Shown: positions 14,582 to 31,094 of the stretch, one piece after another
Position numbering within the stretch: the stretch's first letter is position 1
How the letters are laid out: the number at the start of each line of letters is the position of its first letter
Source: Hoeflea sp.
GTDB taxonomy: Bacteria; Pseudomonadota; Alphaproteobacteria; Rhizobiales; Rhizobiaceae
Direction of reading: 5' to 3'
Assembly: GCA_019084245.1 (NCBI GenBank)
Contig: JAHRFE010000024.1
Coordinates: 114,940 to 178,939, forward strand
Length of the DNA stretch: 64,000 bases
Program-made: the position numbers and the translations under genes
The notes under the pieces: generated by a model
What the model saw: only the letters and a program-made list of their open reading frames with translations
Told to the model about the DNA's origin: nothing
The model's database searches: none

Positions 14582-14634
14582 GGCGTGTGCACGGTGGCGG
14601 GAGCATGGTGCGCTCCAAACCAATGGTGCCCGAT

Positions 14635-16218
14635 ATGAATTCACACACGCCTTCCGAAGTTTCAGACGAGATTGAGCAGATTGAACGGCTTGACGCAGAG
14701 GCGGTCAATGCCGCCTGGCAACGCAAGCCGCTTTATGAGGCGCGCAAGAAGATCTTCCCGAAGCGGGCGGAAGGGACCTACCGGCGGTTCAAGTGGCTGG
14801 TCATGCTGGTGACGCTCGGCATTTACTACATCACGCCCTGGCTGCGCTGGGACCGCGGAGAATTTGCGCCCGATCAGGCGGTGCTGCTCGACGTCGCCAA
14901 CCGGCGGTTCTATTTCTTCTTCATCGACATCTGGCCGCAGGAGTTCTTCTTCGTCGCGGGCCTTCTGGTGATGGCGGGGTTCGGATTGTTCCTGATCACC
15001 TCGGCGGTGGGCCGGGCGTGGTGCGGCTACACCTGTCCGCAGACGGTCTGGGTCGATCTGTTCCTGGTGGTCGAGCGCGCGATCGAGGGCGACCGCAACC
15101 AGCGCATGAAGCTCGAGGACGCGCCCTGGAGCGCCTCGAAACTCGCCAAGCGGGTGTCCAAGCACGCGATCTGGATCCTGATCGGTGTCGCCACCGGCGG
15201 CGCCTGGATCTTCTATTTCGCCGATGCGCCGACGCTGCTGATGAATTTCATCTACGGCGACGCGCCGCCGGTGGCCTATATCACGGTGGCGATCCTGACG
15301 GCCACGACCTACGTGTTCGGCGGGCTGATGCGCGAGCAGGTGTGCATCTACATGTGCCCCTGGCCGCGCATCCAGGCAGCGATGCTCGACGAGAATTCGC
15401 TGGTCGTCACCTACAATGACTGGCGCGGCGAGCCGCGCGGCCGCCATGTCAAGAAGGCTGCGACCCAGGGGCTGATCCAGGGGGATTGCGTCGATTGCAA
15501 CGCCTGCGTCGCCGTCTGCCCGATGGGCATCGACATTCGCGACGGCCAGCAGCTCGAATGCATCACCTGCGCGCTCTGCATCGATGCCTGCGACGCCATC
15601 ATGGACAAGCTCGACCGCCCGCGCGGGCTGATCTCCTATGCGACATTGTCCGATTATGCCGACAACATGGCGCTCGCCACCGATCCGGCGACCGGCACGC
15701 TCGACCCGCGGCGGGTGCGCACGCCCGACCACGGCTTTGTCGACAAGATCAAGCATTTCAACTGGCGCATCGTCTTCCGCCCGCGCTCGCTGCTCTACAT
15801 GGGCGTGTGGACGGCGGTGGGCATCGGCCTCGTGTTCGGGCTGTTGTCGCGCGACCGGCTCGAGGTCAATGTGCTGCATGACCGCAACCCGCAATTCGTG
15901 CTCGAATCCAACGGCGACATCCGCAACGGCTATTCCGTCAAGATCCTCAACATGATCGCCGAACCGCGGGTGATCCGCCTGTCGATCGAGGGGCTTCCGG
16001 GCGCGACGATGCGGATCGCGGGCATCGACGAGCCGGGCGCCGTGTCGTTCGAGATCCCGGTCGAACCCGACCGGCTGCGCGAACTCAGGGTCAATATCCA
16101 TCAGCCGAAAGATCTCGTCACGCCCAGGACCGCAACCTTCGAAATCATCGTCGAAGACACGGCCGGTTCGGAACGGGACAGCTACACCGCCAACTTCCAT
16201 GCCCCGGAGAAAATGTGA
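14635..16218 (+). CDS. ccoG: cbb3 oxidase accessory ferredoxin-like protein CcoG (FixG)
   Basis: A 527-residue membrane protein with two [4Fe-4S]-type motifs in CVDCNACVAVCPMGIDI and ECITCALCIDACD. It has about five transmembrane segments (around residues 45-65, 90-115, 165-190, 200-225 and 380-400) and a C-terminal Ig-like periplasmic domain. Cysteines also occur in WCGYTCPQTVW and CIYMCPWPR. CcoG has been reported to reduce Cu(II) for CuB insertion. The start at 14635 gives MNSHTPSEVSDEIEQ; longer in-frame starts would overlap the FNR/FixK promoter. Its stop overlaps the start of ccoH. Confidence 0.95.
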   Translation: MNSHTPSEVSDEIEQIERLDAEAVNAAWQRKPLYEARKKIFPKRAEGTYRRFKWLVMLVTLGIYYITPWLRWDRGEFAPDQAVLLDVANRRFYFFFIDIWPQEFFFVAGLLVMAGFGLFLITSAVGRAWCGYTCPQTVWVDLFLVVERAIEGDRNQRMKLEDAPWSASKLAKRVSKHAIWILIGVATGGAWIFYFADAPTLLMNFIYGDAPPVAYITVAILTATTYVFGGLMREQVCIYMCPWPRIQAAMLDENSLVVTYNDWRGEPRGRHVKKAATQGLIQGDCVDCNACVAVCPMGIDIRDGQQLECITCALCIDACDAIMDKLDRPRGLISYATLSDYADNMALATDPATGTLDPRRVRTPDHGFVDKIKHFNWRIVFRPRSLLYMGVWTAVGIGLVFGLLSRDRLEVNVLHDRNPQFVLESNGDIRNGYSVKILNMIAEPRVIRLSIEGLPGATMRIAGIDEPGAVSFEIPVEPDRLRELRVNIHQPKDLVTPRTATFEIIVEDTAGSERDSYTANFHAPEKM

Positions 16219-16727
16219 TGCAGATGATCCGTTCCATATTCAATCCCAAGGAATTCACCGGCAAGCACATGCTGTTTGCGATGCTGGCCTTCTTCGGGGT
16301 GATCATCACGGTCAATCTGGTGATGGCGCGCTTCGCGGTCACCACCTGGAGCGGGCTTGTCGTGCCCAACACCTATGTGGCGAGCCAGCAATTCAACGAC
16401 AAGGCGGCGGAATCGCGGGCCATCGAAGCGCTCGGCTATCAGGTCAAGCTCACGCCGAACGCCGAAGGCCTGGAGATCGACTTCATCGATTCCGCCGGTC
16501 AACCGGCGCTCGCCGACAGCATGATTGCCGAGCTGCGCCGCCCGGTCGCCGAGCATCAGGACCGCGACATCGTGCTGGTGCGCGACAGTGACGGGATCTA
16601 CCGCGGCAAGGGCCAGGTGCTCGAAGGCGAGTGGATCGCCACCGTGACTGCCATCAAGGACGGCGAGACGCTCTACAAGCGCGGCTGGCGGTTCCACGTC
16701 AACGCGGACGGGAGCATGACGCAGTGA
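16215..16727 (+). CDS. ccoH: FixH/CcoH family accessory protein
   Basis: A 170-residue protein with one N-terminal transmembrane segment (about residues 15-38, FAMLAFFGVIITVNLVMARF) and a periplasmic domain. Family members assist cbb3 assembly and stay bound to the complex. The start ATG at 16215 overlaps the ccoG stop, and the ccoH stop overlaps the GTG start of ccoI, so the three are probably translationally coupled. Confidence 0.93.
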   Translation: MMQMIRSIFNPKEFTGKHMLFAMLAFFGVIITVNLVMARFAVTTWSGLVVPNTYVASQQFNDKAAESRAIEALGYQVKLTPNAEGLEIDFIDSAGQPALADSMIAELRRPVAEHQDRDIVLVRDSDGIYRGKGQVLEGEWIATVTAIKDGETLYKRGWRFHVNADGSMTQ

Positions 16728-19063
16728 GCTGTTGCGCGGCGGGCACAGAAAGCGCTGCGGAACTTGAGGCGCTGAAATCGGAAGGGCCGTCAGCCGAGGA
16801 AATGTGGCTGTCGAGCCGGCCGCTCGGCGATGGCCTGCGTCAGGTCGACCTGATCGTTCCCGGCGTCCATTGCGGCGCCTGCATCGCGCTCTTGGAGAAG
16901 GAGCTTCCGCGGACCCAGGGCGTCGACCATGCCCGCGTCAATCTCTCCACCCGCAGGGTGTCGGTGGTGTTTCGCGAGGCGGACGGCCTCGGCAATGCCG
17001 GCGGGCAGGAATCGAAACGCCCGGAAGCTGTGCTGACCGCGCTCGGTGAAAAATTCAAGGCTTTGGGCTATCCCGCACACCTGCCCGGCGGCGCCGACGA
17101 GGCCGCAGACCCGGCTTTGCGCGAATTGCTCAAGGCGCTGGCAGTGGCCGGGTTTGCCTCGATGAATGTGATGCTGTTGTCGGTGTCGGTCTGGTCGGGG
17201 GCGGAGGCTGCGACGCGGGACCTGTTTCACTGGATCTCGGCGCTGATTGCCGCTCCGGCGCTCATCTATTCCGGCCGGGTGTTCTTCGTTTCAGCCTGGA
17301 GCGCGCTTCGGCATGGCCACGCCAACATGGATGTGCCGATCTCTCTGGGCGTCGGGCTCGCCTATGCGATCTCGCTGCATGAGACCATCACCCATGGCGA
17401 ACACGCCTATTTCGACGCCTCGGTGACGCTTCTGTTCTTCCTGCTCGCGGGCCGGACGCTCGATCACATGATGCGCGAAAAGGCCCGTTCCGCGGTGCGC
17501 AATCTGGTGCGGCTGTCGCCCCGGGGCGCGATGGTGATCCGCGAGGACGGCGCGCGCGAGTATCTGGCGCTTGACGAGATCGAGCCCGGCATGCGGCTGG
17601 CGATCGCGCCGGGCGACCGCATTCCGGTCGACGGCCGGATCGTCTCGGGCCGGTCGGACATGGATTTCGCCGTGGTCAATGGCGAGAGCGCGCCGCAGCT
17701 GGTCGAGGCCGGGTCACTGACGCCCGCGGGCACGCTCAACCTCACCGGCGCGCTGGTGCTCGAAGCCACGCGCAGCGCCAGGAATTCGTTCCTCGCTGAA
17801 ATGGTCTCGATGATGGAAGCGGCCGAAAGCGGCAGGGCCGGCTACCGGCGGATTGCCGACCGGGCCTCTTCGATCTATGCGCCGGCAGTGCACATCCTCG
17901 CGCTCGGCACCTTCATCGGCTGGATGATGGTCTCGGGCGACTGGCGCATGGCCATGCTGACCGCGGTCGCGGTGCTGATCATCACCTGTCCCTGCGCGCT
18001 GGGGCTCGCGGTGCCGGTGGTGCAGGTGATTGCGGCGGGGCGGCTGTTCGAGAACGGCATCATGGTCAAGGACGGCTCGGCCATGGAGCGGCTGGCGCAG
18101 ACCGATCACGTCGTGTTCGACAAGACCGGAACGCTGACGCGGGGCAAACCGCGGCTGATCAATTCCGCCGCCGTGGCGCCGGATCATCTTGCCATCGCGG
18201 CGCGGATCGCGCGGGCCTCGCGCCATCCCCTGAGCCAGGCGCTGGCCGATTTCGATACGGGCGATGCGGGGCCGGAGTTCGACATCACCGAAACGCCCGG
18301 CGACGGGGTCGAGGCGATTTCGCCGGAAGGCGATATCTACCGGCTCGGGCGCGCCGCCTTTGCGCTCGATAACCGCGACGAGGGGATCGAGCGCTGCGCC
18401 GATGCGAGCCAGGTGATCCTGTCGAAGAACGGTAGTTTCCTCGATATCTTCCTGTTCTCCGATCAGTTGCGGCGCGGCGCTGCGCAGGCCGTGGCGCGGC
18501 TTTCGGGCTTGGGTATTGACGCCGAGATCCTGTCGGGCGACCGCGAGGGGCCGGTGAGGGCGCTCGCAGGCGAACTGGGGGTCAGCACTTACGTCGCGGG
18601 CGTGCGGCCACGCGGCAAGGTCGACCGCGTCAAGGTGCTGGCGTCGGAGGGCCACAAGCCGCTGATGGTCGGCGACGGGCTGAACGACGCGCCGGCGCTC
18701 TCGGCGGCGCATGTTTCCATGGCGCCGGCCAGTGCCGCCGATGTCGGGCGCATGGCCGCGGATTTCGTGTTCCTGCATGATTCGCTCGAGGCCGTGCCGA
18801 TGGCGATTGAAGTCTCGCGCAAGGCGAGCAGCCTTATCCGGCAGAATTTCGCGCTGGCCATTGGCTACAATGTCATCGCCGTGCCGATCGCGGTGATGGG
18901 CTACGCCACGCCGCTGATCGCGGCGCTGGCAATGTCGTCCTCATCGGTCATCGTGGTCCTGAACTCACTGCGATTGCGCCGCAAGACCCGCGTCGAGCAG
19001 TTCGCCGCGCCGGAGCGGGTGCCGCAGCCCGCGCCAAATCCCGGCCTCGGGGCCCAGGCATGA
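16724..19063 (+). CDS. ccoI: Cu+-exporting P1B-type ATPase CcoI (FixI)
   Basis: A 779-residue copper P-type ATPase that supplies copper for the binuclear centre of the cbb3 oxidase. An N-terminal heavy-metal domain has GVHCGACIALLE. The transmembrane CPC motif is TCPCALGLAVP, the phosphorylation site DKTGTLTRGKP, and the hinge GDGLNDAPALS. It starts at the GTG at 16724, overlapping the ccoH stop; this gives VSCCAAGTES at the N-terminus, another Cys pair near the start. The stop overlaps the ccoS start. Confidence 0.95.
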   Translation: MSCCAAGTESAAELEALKSEGPSAEEMWLSSRPLGDGLRQVDLIVPGVHCGACIALLEKELPRTQGVDHARVNLSTRRVSVVFREADGLGNAGGQESKRPEAVLTALGEKFKALGYPAHLPGGADEAADPALRELLKALAVAGFASMNVMLLSVSVWSGAEAATRDLFHWISALIAAPALIYSGRVFFVSAWSALRHGHANMDVPISLGVGLAYAISLHETITHGEHAYFDASVTLLFFLLAGRTLDHMMREKARSAVRNLVRLSPRGAMVIREDGAREYLALDEIEPGMRLAIAPGDRIPVDGRIVSGRSDMDFAVVNGESAPQLVEAGSLTPAGTLNLTGALVLEATRSARNSFLAEMVSMMEAAESGRAGYRRIADRASSIYAPAVHILALGTFIGWMMVSGDWRMAMLTAVAVLIITCPCALGLAVPVVQVIAAGRLFENGIMVKDGSAMERLAQTDHVVFDKTGTLTRGKPRLINSAAVAPDHLAIAARIARASRHPLSQALADFDTGDAGPEFDITETPGDGVEAISPEGDIYRLGRAAFALDNRDEGIERCADASQVILSKNGSFLDIFLFSDQLRRGAAQAVARLSGLGIDAEILSGDREGPVRALAGELGVSTYVAGVRPRGKVDRVKVLASEGHKPLMVGDGLNDAPALSAAHVSMAPASAADVGRMAADFVFLHDSLEAVPMAIEVSRKASSLIRQNFALAIGYNVIAVPIAVMGYATPLIAALAMSSSSVIVVLNSLRLRRKTRVEQFAAPERVPQPAPNPGLGAQA

Positions 19064-28656: not shown

Positions 28657-28784
28657 GGAGTATGATGCCCGCCTTCGGGGCCATTTGGGGCTCACAGGCA
28701 CGGCAACAGAGGCGCTGAAGCTATCGTTTCCGGGGCTATGGTTGGCTGCAAGCCACCCGGTTCAGACCTCTCGTTTCGTCAATG

Positions 28785-28895
28785 CTCGGGCTTGTCCCGA
28801 GGATCTGCTGGCCCCTCGGCATTCCCCCTGAACCGGCTGTTTTGGGGCGTCTCCTGTAGATCCTCGGCACGACGGCCGAGGATGACGGCGGAGAG
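28785..28895 (+). repeat. 111-bp direct repeat, copy 1
   Basis: Begins ctcgggcttgtcccgagga, and the same 111 bases recur 214 bp further on with only two mismatches. It contains two hairpins (ctcgggcttgtcccgag; cctcggcacgacggccgagg). It resembles the intergenic palindromic elements common in rhizobial genomes. No gene is seen between gcdH and the histidine kinase. Confidence 0.85.
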
Positions 28896-28998
28896 GCTGG
28901 TAGGCCACGGAGAGAGTGGTCATGACGGCGAAAGGATCGGCAACAATGGCCGCCCGCATCCTTCGTTTCGTCCTCCTCGGGCCCCTCCTTTCGTCATC

Positions 28999-29109
28999 CT
29001 CGGGCTTGTCCCGAGGATCTGCTGGCCCCTCGGCATTCCCCCTGAACCGGCTGTTTTGGGGCGTCTCCTGCAGATCTTCGGCACGACGGCCGAGGATGAC
29101 GGCGGAGAG
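28999..29109 (+). repeat. 111-bp direct repeat, copy 2
   Basis: Second copy of the element at 28785, differing by a c/t at two positions near the end of the unit (cagatctt versus tagatcct). Its end lies 15 bp before the 3' end of the kinase gene. Confidence 0.85.
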
Positions 29110-29124
29110 AATTGCCCGCCGATT

Positions 29125-30357
29125 TTATTCGCCGGAGGCGTCCGCGGAGACGATCTGATCCTCGGGGATGCTGATTGTGAACTGGGTCCCCTGGGTTTCG
29201 ACGGTGTCGACCGAAATGCTCCAGCCGAGATGGCCCAGCGCCTTGACCACGATCGCCAGACCCATTCCGGTGCCATCCACGCTTGCGTTTGAATGAAGCC
29301 GCATGAATGGCTGGAAAATGCGATCCTTGAGCGTCGGATCAAACCCCATGCCGTTGTCCTTGATGATGTAGTCGACGCCCTGATCCGTTCGGGCGGTGGT
29401 GATGGCGATTTCCGGGACACGGTCCGCGGGAGTGTATTTGATCGCGTTGCCGATAATGTTCTGAAGCACCTGGGCCACCAGCGACGGGTCGGCGCGGACC
29501 ATGATGTCGGGGATGTCGGTGTCAATCCTGCCCTGGCGGTCGTTGATCGCCAGCTCGAGGTTTTCAAGCGTCGCCTCGGTCTCGGCTCTGAGAGACAGAT
29601 CCTGGATGTCGACGGTGTGCTGGTCGATCTCCGCATGGTGGAGAATGTTGCGCACCAGGGTGCGGGCCCGGCGCGCGGACTCGTTGATTTTTTCCAGATA
29701 AAGTCTCTGTTCGGCGTCGCCGGTGGTGTCCTGCTCGATGGCGAGTTCCGAGAACGAGACGATCTTGCGAAGCGGCTCCTGCAGATCATGGGATGCGAAA
29801 TGCGCGTAATCCGACAGGCTCGCATTCATCCTTTCCAGCGCTTCGGCCTTGCTCTGCAGTTCCCGGGTCCGTTCCTGGATCCGGATTTCCAGTTCCGCCT
29901 TGATGGTTTCCAGTTCAGCATTGGCGCGGCGCTGTTCGGCAATCGACAGGCCCAGGGCATCATTCTTGAGCCTGAGCGTCTGGGCGCTGGGGAGCTTCAG
30001 CGCAGCGGGCATCAGCATCCAGCTGGCAACGGCTGTGAGGCCGGACACGACCGCGGTTCCGGCCTTCACCACGCCTTCGAAGCCATAGACCGGATTCCAC
30101 AGGGTGATCAGGCCGACTAGATGGGTCAGCCCGCAGGCGAGGATGAACGCCGAGAACAGCAGAATGATCCGGCTCTGAACCAGGTCGCTTCTCTTGTAGT
30201 ACAAATAGAGAAGAGCGGTGGGGATGATGAAATAGGAAAGAAAGATGACGAAATCTGAAAGCGCATGCAGCGCAATCAGATCCGTTCGCCATGTCATGCA
30301 GTAGCCGTGTGCCAGAAACGAGTTTGTCTCGAAATAAAACCGTATGTCTTCCAGCAT
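29125..30357 (-). CDS. histidine kinase with an ethylene-receptor-type membrane sensor
   Basis: A 410-residue sensor kinase. The first ~115 residues form three membrane helices resembling the ethylene-binding domain of plant ETR1. Residues D35, Y42, I45, P46, I72, C75 and H79 occupy the same relative positions as ETR1 D25, Y32, I35, P36, I62, C65 and H69; the Cys and His are the copper(I) ligands there. A coiled-coil follows (about 125-180), then a HisKA with H190 in FASHDLQEPLRK and an ATPase domain with N304 (NIIGNAIKYT), DNGMGF and GTGMGLAI. No GAF domain is present. The response regulator gene lies 11 bp upstream and ends just before it. Binding of ethylene or another small ligand is inferred, not shown. 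Confidence 0.88.
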   Translation of the reverse strand: MLEDIRFYFETNSFLAHGYCMTWRTDLIALHALSDFVIFLSYFIIPTALLYLYYKRSDLVQSRIILLFSAFILACGLTHLVGLITLWNPVYGFEGVVKAGTAVVSGLTAVASWMLMPAALKLPSAQTLRLKNDALGLSIAEQRRANAELETIKAELEIRIQERTRELQSKAEALERMNASLSDYAHFASHDLQEPLRKIVSFSELAIEQDTTGDAEQRLYLEKINESARRARTLVRNILHHAEIDQHTVDIQDLSLRAETEATLENLELAINDRQGRIDTDIPDIMVRADPSLVAQVLQNIIGNAIKYTPADRVPEIAITTARTDQGVDYIIKDNGMGFDPTLKDRIFQPFMRLHSNASVDGTGMGLAIVVKALGHLGWSISVDTVETQGTQFTISIPEDQIVSADASGE

Positions 30358-30368
30358 GGGGCGCCTGT

Positions 30369-30788
30369 CTATTCGATTTCGCGGATTCCGAGGAATTGTC
30401 TTTGCATTGTCTGCATGGCCGCCATGGATTCGGGCTTCACATAGGAACCGGTGGCTCCGAGCGATATGGCCTTGGTGTGGGTGTGCTTGTCGATGGTGGT
30501 GCTGACAATATAGATCGGCAGGGACGTGAGGTGATCCATCTCCCTGAGGCGCCTGAGCAGTTCGATGCCGTCAAGGCCCGGCATGTTGATGTCCATGCAG
30601 ACACAGTCCGGCAGGCTGCCGGGCGCGCCGGCCGAGCCAGCAAAGAAATTCAGGGCGTCTTCCGCGTCGGTAAAGGTGCTTATGGTGAGGGTCATGGCCG
30701 AGGCCGCCTCGAGCCGCCTCAGGGAAGCCGACATCAAGAAGATGTCATCCAGGTCATCATCGACGATGCAAATGTGCTTGTTGGACAT
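30369..30788 (-). CDS. single-domain response regulator (Rcp1/CheY-like)
   Basis: A 139-residue receiver with no output domain. Key residues are the acid cluster D10-D12, phosphoacceptor D66 (CMDINMPGLDG), T97 and K118 in YVKPES. The form is close to Rcp1-type regulators that partner phytochrome-like kinases. I chose the ATG at 30788, since the GTG at 30803 adds five residues without better support. The gene directly precedes the kinase gene on the same strand with an 11-bp gap and so is its likely partner; the signal must go on to another protein. Confidence 0.9.
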   Translation of the reverse strand: MSNKHICIVDDDLDDIFLMSASLRRLEAASAMTLTISTFTDAEDALNFFAGSAGAPGSLPDCVCMDINMPGLDGIELLRRLREMDHLTSLPIYIVSTTIDKHTHTKAISLGATGSYVKPESMAAMQTMQRQFLGIREIE

Positions 30789-30977
30789 AAGTCTTTTTCT
30801 CACATGTTTTAGCTCGTCCTAAATCTGAGCATAGAGATTCGGGGCCGGAAATCAAATTTCGGCGAGGGATTTTGCGAAAGGCGGGGCGGGGCGGGGTGAT
30901 GACCGGCTCCCAACCGCTCGGTGCGGGCCCCTCGTTTTTTCGCTGGCCGGCTGTTGCGGGGCGGGGGCCAGGAGACC

Positions 30978-31006
30978 CTCGGCACGACGGCCGAGGGTGA
31001 CGGCGG
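30978..31006 (+). repeat. partial third copy of the palindromic element
   Basis: ctcggcacgacggccgagg followed by gtgacggcgg, matching 28 of 29 bases at the end of the 111-bp repeat. Upstream bases are only loosely similar (ccggctgttgcggggcg). It lies in the 291-bp gap between the response regulator and rhodanese genes, which holds nothing else I can name. Confidence 0.75.
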
Positions 31007-31094
31007 TGGGGGCGATTGGGTGGCCGCAAGATGCCCGGTGCGGGTCGCGGTCTTCCCTGGGGCCCGCCTCAGGAAGTGCGGGAGGGAATGCCTG

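Follow-up and report, generated by a model that had tools for sequence, protein, structure and literature searches.

What does a histidine kinase with an ethylene-receptor-type membrane domain sense in an alphaproteobacterium, and through what partner does it signal? The question is raised by two adjacent genes in a stretch of 64,000 nucleotides from Hoeflea sp. (GenBank assembly GCA_019084245.1, contig JAHRFE010000024.1), the whole of which we call the window. A first-pass annotation had described the two genes as a kinase with an ethylene-receptor-type copper site and a single-domain response regulator, here RR1; its coordinates, strand and division into two genes were all correct. The kinase gene (29125-30357) is read from the minus strand and encodes 410 amino acids (aa), and the RR1 gene lies 11 nucleotides (nt) upstream of its start on the same strand. 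The pair is a real ethylene-receptor-type sensor pair, of a kind expected since AzoEtr1 of Azospirillum brasilense, with a different kinase core and a different regulator. Its parts are as follows.

29125 to 30357, minus strand: sensor histidine kinase of 410 aa, consisting of an ethylene-binding-type membrane domain, a linker, HisKA and HATPase_c.
29992 to 30279, minus strand: ETR1_N domain, residues 27 to 122 (Pfam E value 4.1e-33; alignment to AzoEtr1, to ETR1 and to plasmid-borne cyanobacterial domains).
29620 to 29805, minus strand: HisKA domain, residues 185 to 246, with the phospho-acceptor H190 in ASHDLQEPLR (Pfam and kinase alignment).
29158 to 29490, minus strand: HATPase_c domain, residues 290 to 400, with N-box residue N304 (Pfam and kinase alignment).
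30369 to 30788, minus strand: single-domain response regulator RR1 of 139 aa, with D66, T97 and K118 (Pfam and receiver alignment).

The membrane domain matched the Pfam family ETR1_N (PF25487) at 114 bits against a curated cut-off of 27, over profile positions 2 to 97 of 97. The same profile had no match in 14 control genomes, so the match is not a chance one, and it had a single match in the window's whole genome. The first-pass annotation had assigned the N terminus to the ethylene-binding family with a complete residue set, and had named placement in an unrelated membrane family as the outcome that would refute this; the profile search returned ETR1_N instead, and the residues were in place. 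When plant ETR1 was aligned with the window sensor, D35, Y42, I45, P46, I72, C75 and H79 were each numbered 10 higher than in ETR1. For the output lysine, K98 here and K91 in ETR1, the difference is 7, the offset changing at helix 3 with a loop that is 3 aa shorter. All seven ethylene-binding residues of ETR1 and K98 are thus present, at an overall identity to ETR1 of 34% over 105 aa.

Our comparison with AzoEtr1 draws on PMC11819568 and on the sequence of A. brasilense Sp7 (L195). As described there, AzoEtr1 comprises an ethylene-binding domain, a PAS domain and a kinase, and its gene adjoins that of AzoRRetr1, a 135-aa regulator without an output domain (PMC11819568). Residues 1 to 130 of AzoEtr1 expressed in Pichia bind 14C-ethylene, and azoEtr1-disrupted cells have little or no saturable ethylene binding (PMC11819568). 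Receptor phenotypes were shown for AzoEtr1, with output through AzoRRetr1 being the authors' prediction, and putative ethylene receptors are present in many proteobacteria (PMC11819568). The window sensor is 53% identical to the AzoEtr1 domain over 125 aa, and in the same sources AzoEtr1 carries D35, C75, H79 and K98 at identical numbers. This identity to a tested domain, together with the full residue set, argues strongly that the window sensor would bind copper and ethylene. Because AzoEtr1, from the same bacterial class, binds ethylene, the window pair belongs to a known kind that is differently wired, and the first-pass view that the role of a pair of this sort was wholly open in an alphaproteobacterium is not supported.

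We then asked what the sensor is joined to. Besides ETR1_N, only HisKA (E value 7.8e-9) and HATPase_c (E value 1.5e-22) passed the cut-offs in a Pfam scan of the kinase; neither GAF nor PAS did. H190 and N304 were invariant across six aligned kinases, in agreement with the annotation's canonical, GAF-less kinase unlike the plant receptors. The H-box reads SLSDYAHFASHDLQEPLR, and the type SHDLQEPLR or SHDLKEPLR occurred in 16 of the 61 rows listed (the 61 rows contain the duplicates L002/L102 and L005/L105, plus L003 and L006). By sequence, the closest solved chain to the kinase core was 8f71 (E value 3.3e-32), the kinase of the bacteriophytochrome RpBphP2; no PAS-GAF-PHY photosensory module was found among Pfam matches to the kinase up to an E value of 1. 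For RR1, Response_reg was the sole Pfam match (residues 6 to 127 of 139), which bears out a receiver-only neighbor with no output domain, and D66, T97 and K118 were invariant in four aligned receivers. Within its own genome RR1 stands without a close paralogue (10 further matches, best E value 2e-9). Its closest solved chains were 6xvu and 8avv, the latter with the label bacteriophytochrome and response regulator; further chains and many CheY chains came after these. The earlier label of Rcp1 type fits these nearest solved chains as a putative one: they include a bacteriophytochrome/response-regulator entry but also many CheY chains.

The window pair can be set against four known systems. With AzoEtr1/AzoRRetr1, it shares the bacterial class and the arrangement of a HisKA kinase with an ethylene-binding domain adjoining a receiver-only regulator. 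However, AzoEtr1 has a PAS domain and the window kinase has none, the kinase cores are only 24% identical over 236 aa, the H-box of AzoEtr1 is AHEMSQPLN rather than SHDLQEPLR, and AzoRRetr1 is 35% identical to RR1 over just 43 aa, its gene lying downstream of and overlapping that of the kinase, whereas RR1 lies upstream. SynEtr1 of Synechocystis, likened here by description, is also a bacterial ethylene receptor kinase that signals to a response regulator (PMC11819568), while the window pair has neither a light domain nor an output domain in the Pfam scan. Plant ETR1 has the same membrane copper/ethylene site, but the window kinase lacks GAF and its receiver is encoded by a separate gene. Bacteriophytochrome kinases and their single-domain regulators supply the nearest solved chains by sequence for both core and receiver, but in place of a photosensory module the window kinase has an ethylene-type sensor. 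Since the sensor is shared with AzoEtr1 and, by sequence, a bacteriophytochrome supplies the closest core, an ethylene sensor appears here in combination with a different signalling core.

Taken together, the pair is probably a compact two-component ethylene sensor, with copper-dependent sensing and phosphorylation of the diffusible regulator RR1. Judging from the family and the residues, three predicted membrane helices would bind Cu(I) via C75 and H79, with D35 in a positioning role, and the copper would bind ethylene. If the pair resembles AtETR1 and, at one remove, SynEtr1 in the account of PMC11819568, ethylene would then alter how the helices pack, acting through K98 and the long helix after it, and lower autophosphorylation of H190. 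Gene adjacency and intact residues suggest that the phosphate would pass from H190 to D66 of RR1. In the last and weakest step, phosphorylated RR1, having no output domain, may bind another protein as CheY-type regulators do, and not DNA.

We next looked into how the sensor is distributed. In a tree of sensor domains (117 columns and 105 rows, leaving out the duplicates L102 and L105 and the fragment L186), the window grouped with relatives from Hoeflea and Rhizobium (8 rows, support 99); with Breoghania added, the clade has 9 rows (support 98) and leaves Azospirillum outside. ETR1 stood apart from the window on a long branch in another 9-row group (support 82), together with four cyanobacterial domains borne on plasmids, a domain of Eleftheria and three from class members. 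Because 50 of the 102 inner branches were open and long branches were flagged, only the window's clade is relied on. Within the genus, 6 of 18 genomes carried ETR1_N, counting the window's own; at wider ranks it occurred in 10 of the 394 family genomes sampled, in 64 of 397 from the order (55 of them over the cut-off) and in 28 of 385 from the class. As 12 of the 18 genus genomes lack it, the domain is accessory.

We surveyed the 94 loci over the Pfam cut-off from the genus, order and class scans plus the window (95 rows), leaving out 10 loci under the cut-off. The site was called canonical when the full residue set was present, with Y/F and I/V allowed, and this was so in 57 of the 95 rows (53 strictly), leaving 38 non-canonical. 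K98 was kept in all 57 canonical rows and in 17 of the 38 others. The receiver search used a home-made profile and some regions stop at contig ends, so the counts of partners are lower bounds: among canonical rows, at least 17 had an adjacent same-strand receiver-only gene and at least 13 a fused receiver (one has both). At least seven canonical rows lay near a PhyR-like gene (one of these also with a fused receiver), and in 22 none of these partners was found.

Around the window pair, the next genes are that of an acyl-CoA dehydrogenase on one side and that of a rhodanese on the other, followed by sarcosine oxidase genes; no copper-handling family was found among the nine neighboring proteins scanned. 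The RR1 gene lies upstream of the kinase gene on the same strand in all six genus carriers. The dehydrogenase gene is found past the kinase side in five of the six (the window, L102, L104, L105 and, at about 2.4 kb, L101/L258), the sequence of L103 ending about 1 kb past the kinase. Sarcosine oxidase genes stand on the RR1 side in three carriers (the window, L101 and L103) and were not found in the 3.4 to 5.6 kb read at L002, L005 and L104. The downstream flank is thus largely shared and the upstream flank is not. In L246, which lacks the domain, about 510 nt separate the dehydrogenase gene from soxB and hold no pair; in L250, likewise a non-carrier, the rhodanese gene alone lies between the two. 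A second receiver of 120 aa, RR2, follows the kinase in three of the six carriers (L101:2722-3081, L104:5111-5470 and L105:5159-5518). The window, L002/L102 and L103 showed no RR2, and three RR2 queries gave no remnant in the window at an E value of 0.01. The corresponding interval of the window is as follows.

28657 to 29124, no strand: gap between the kinase gene and the acyl-CoA dehydrogenase gene, free of RR2 and holding a 114-nt repeat pair.

The two direct repeats (28782-28895 and 28996-29109) are 97% identical, and part of the repeat recurs at 30968-31011.

In Rhizobium sp. 32-5/1, the cassette is present on both a plasmid and the chromosome (L003:6001-7209 and L004:6001-7209). Over 1635 nt, a stretch that takes in most of RR1 and the kinase, the two copies are 99% identical, and the fetched regions had no other alignment at an E value of 1e-10. 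In each copy the RR1 reading frame is split. The chromosomal kinase (L004) has W in place of C75 in an open frame, and the plasmid copy keeps C.

Several observations weigh against an ethylene sensor of the bacteriophytochrome-like design proposed here. The predicted structure of the kinase was weak (mean pLDDT 68, pTM 0.40), with helices at 25-55, 62-84 and 91-119 of the membrane domain placed at low confidence; a fold search with this model put general HisKA kinases first (ZraS, HK853 and YycG) and 8f71 at rank 16, and the membrane-domain profile had no match among PDB sequences at E values up to 0.1. The acyl-CoA dehydrogenase, rhodanese and sarcosine oxidase genes offer no link to ethylene, the domain is missing from most genus genomes (10 of 15 when only those of good quality are counted), and L004 suggests that a clade member can persist without the C75 ligand.

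These points bear unequally on the other explanations that we considered. The domain might bind Cu(I) yet respond in the cell to copper as such, to redox state or to some other small ligand rather than to ethylene, an unlikely alternative that draws on the 38 survey rows without the full residue set, where the fold can serve other roles, and on the four of six genus carriers without an ACC deaminase over the cut-off, which leaves no general link to ethylene metabolism. Against it, the seven binding residues and K98 are kept here, the closest tested relative binds ethylene, none of the scanned neighbors is of a copper-handling family and the window's copper ATPase is some 10 kb away. We think it quite improbable that the pair corresponds directly to AzoEtr1/AzoRRetr1 and shares its output pathway: the shared class, the 53% identical sensor and the receiver-only partner in both would suit this, but the divergent core and H-box, the short match between regulators, the PAS domain, the opposite gene order and the exclusion of Azospirillum from the window's 9-row clade do not. 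That the cassette is a decaying relic that no longer signals is hardly credible. The lack of the domain in 12 of the 18 genus genomes, the missing RR2 and the damaged Rhizobium sp. 32-5/1 copies would accord with decay, but both window genes are open with their catalytic residues, and the nearest relative is 87% (kinase) and 91% (RR1) identical. A working ethylene sensor that signals through RR1 remains our preferred reading.

The survey also gave two side findings. A gene like that of the general-stress regulator PhyR, called by length and receiver position, lay near 26 of the 95 rows, 7 of the 57 canonical and 19 of the 38 non-canonical ones, with the rows being related and the counts not independent (L124, L125, L127, L128, L131, L136, L107, L119, L184, L153 and 16 more among L101-L194). 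Pfam confirmed PhyR_sigma2 and PhyR_sigma-like in all 10 PhyR-like genes scanned, and of three PhyR-linked ETR1_N kinases scanned, L119 and L124 had HWE_HK and L107 had HisKA with a fused receiver. This suggests that the ethylene-type sensor domain serves general-stress kinases, with its metal ligands often lost. We found no literature joining an ethylene-binding domain, a histidine kinase and the general stress response, nor, by title or abstract start, such a sensor among the papers listed on PhyR, the general stress response and ethylene. In addition, L165:3881-4306 (142 aa) and L168:3852-4310 (153 aa) are sensor-only open frames with a canonical site that stand directly before one gene for a histidine kinase and another for a lone receiver; it is possible that the ethylene-binding domain is a stand-alone protein there.

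We also looked for ethylene and copper functions elsewhere in the genome. ACC deaminase consumes the plant ethylene precursor, and the window's genome has a match to it at G000:C40:195366-196376 (L223, L260; 543 bits against a curated cut-off of 392). Four of the 18 genus genomes had the enzyme over the cut-off, two of the six domain carriers (the window's included) and two of the 12 non-carriers, so no association with the kinase was shown. Within the window, positions 14587-19063 hold a ccoG-like gene (read by eye), a short gene and a copper-transporting P-type ATPase gene (about 17273-18979, TIGR01511 over the cut-off). We rejected this ATPase as a dedicated copper supplier, as it follows the ccoG-like gene and four other copper ATPases over the cut-off are present in the genome; the ccoG-like gene, so labelled by eye, and the ATPase perhaps form what we take to be a cbb3 oxidase assembly cluster. 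Judged by title and abstract start, the literature on Hoeflea and ethylene had nothing about receptors, and searches on ethylene with marine bacteria, macroalgae and ACC deaminase gave no relevant lead among the papers listed.

If ethylene binding is true, the tested bacterial ethylene receptors would come to include a separate clade whose kinase core differs, and a small two-gene system (410 and 139 aa) would be at hand for ethylene-controlled phosphotransfer in vitro, with useful natural variants in the C75W copy and in the loci with and without RR2. More broadly, and with the arguments evenly poised in our view, the ethylene-binding domain may be an exchangeable sensor on several alphaproteobacterial signalling cores. 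In the Hoeflea/Rhizobium/Breoghania clade it would then drive a kinase of the phytochrome type and, through this, one or two regulators that consist of a receiver alone, which would provide an ethylene response outside the Azospirillum lineage with a wiring unlike that of AzoEtr1, SynEtr1 and plants.
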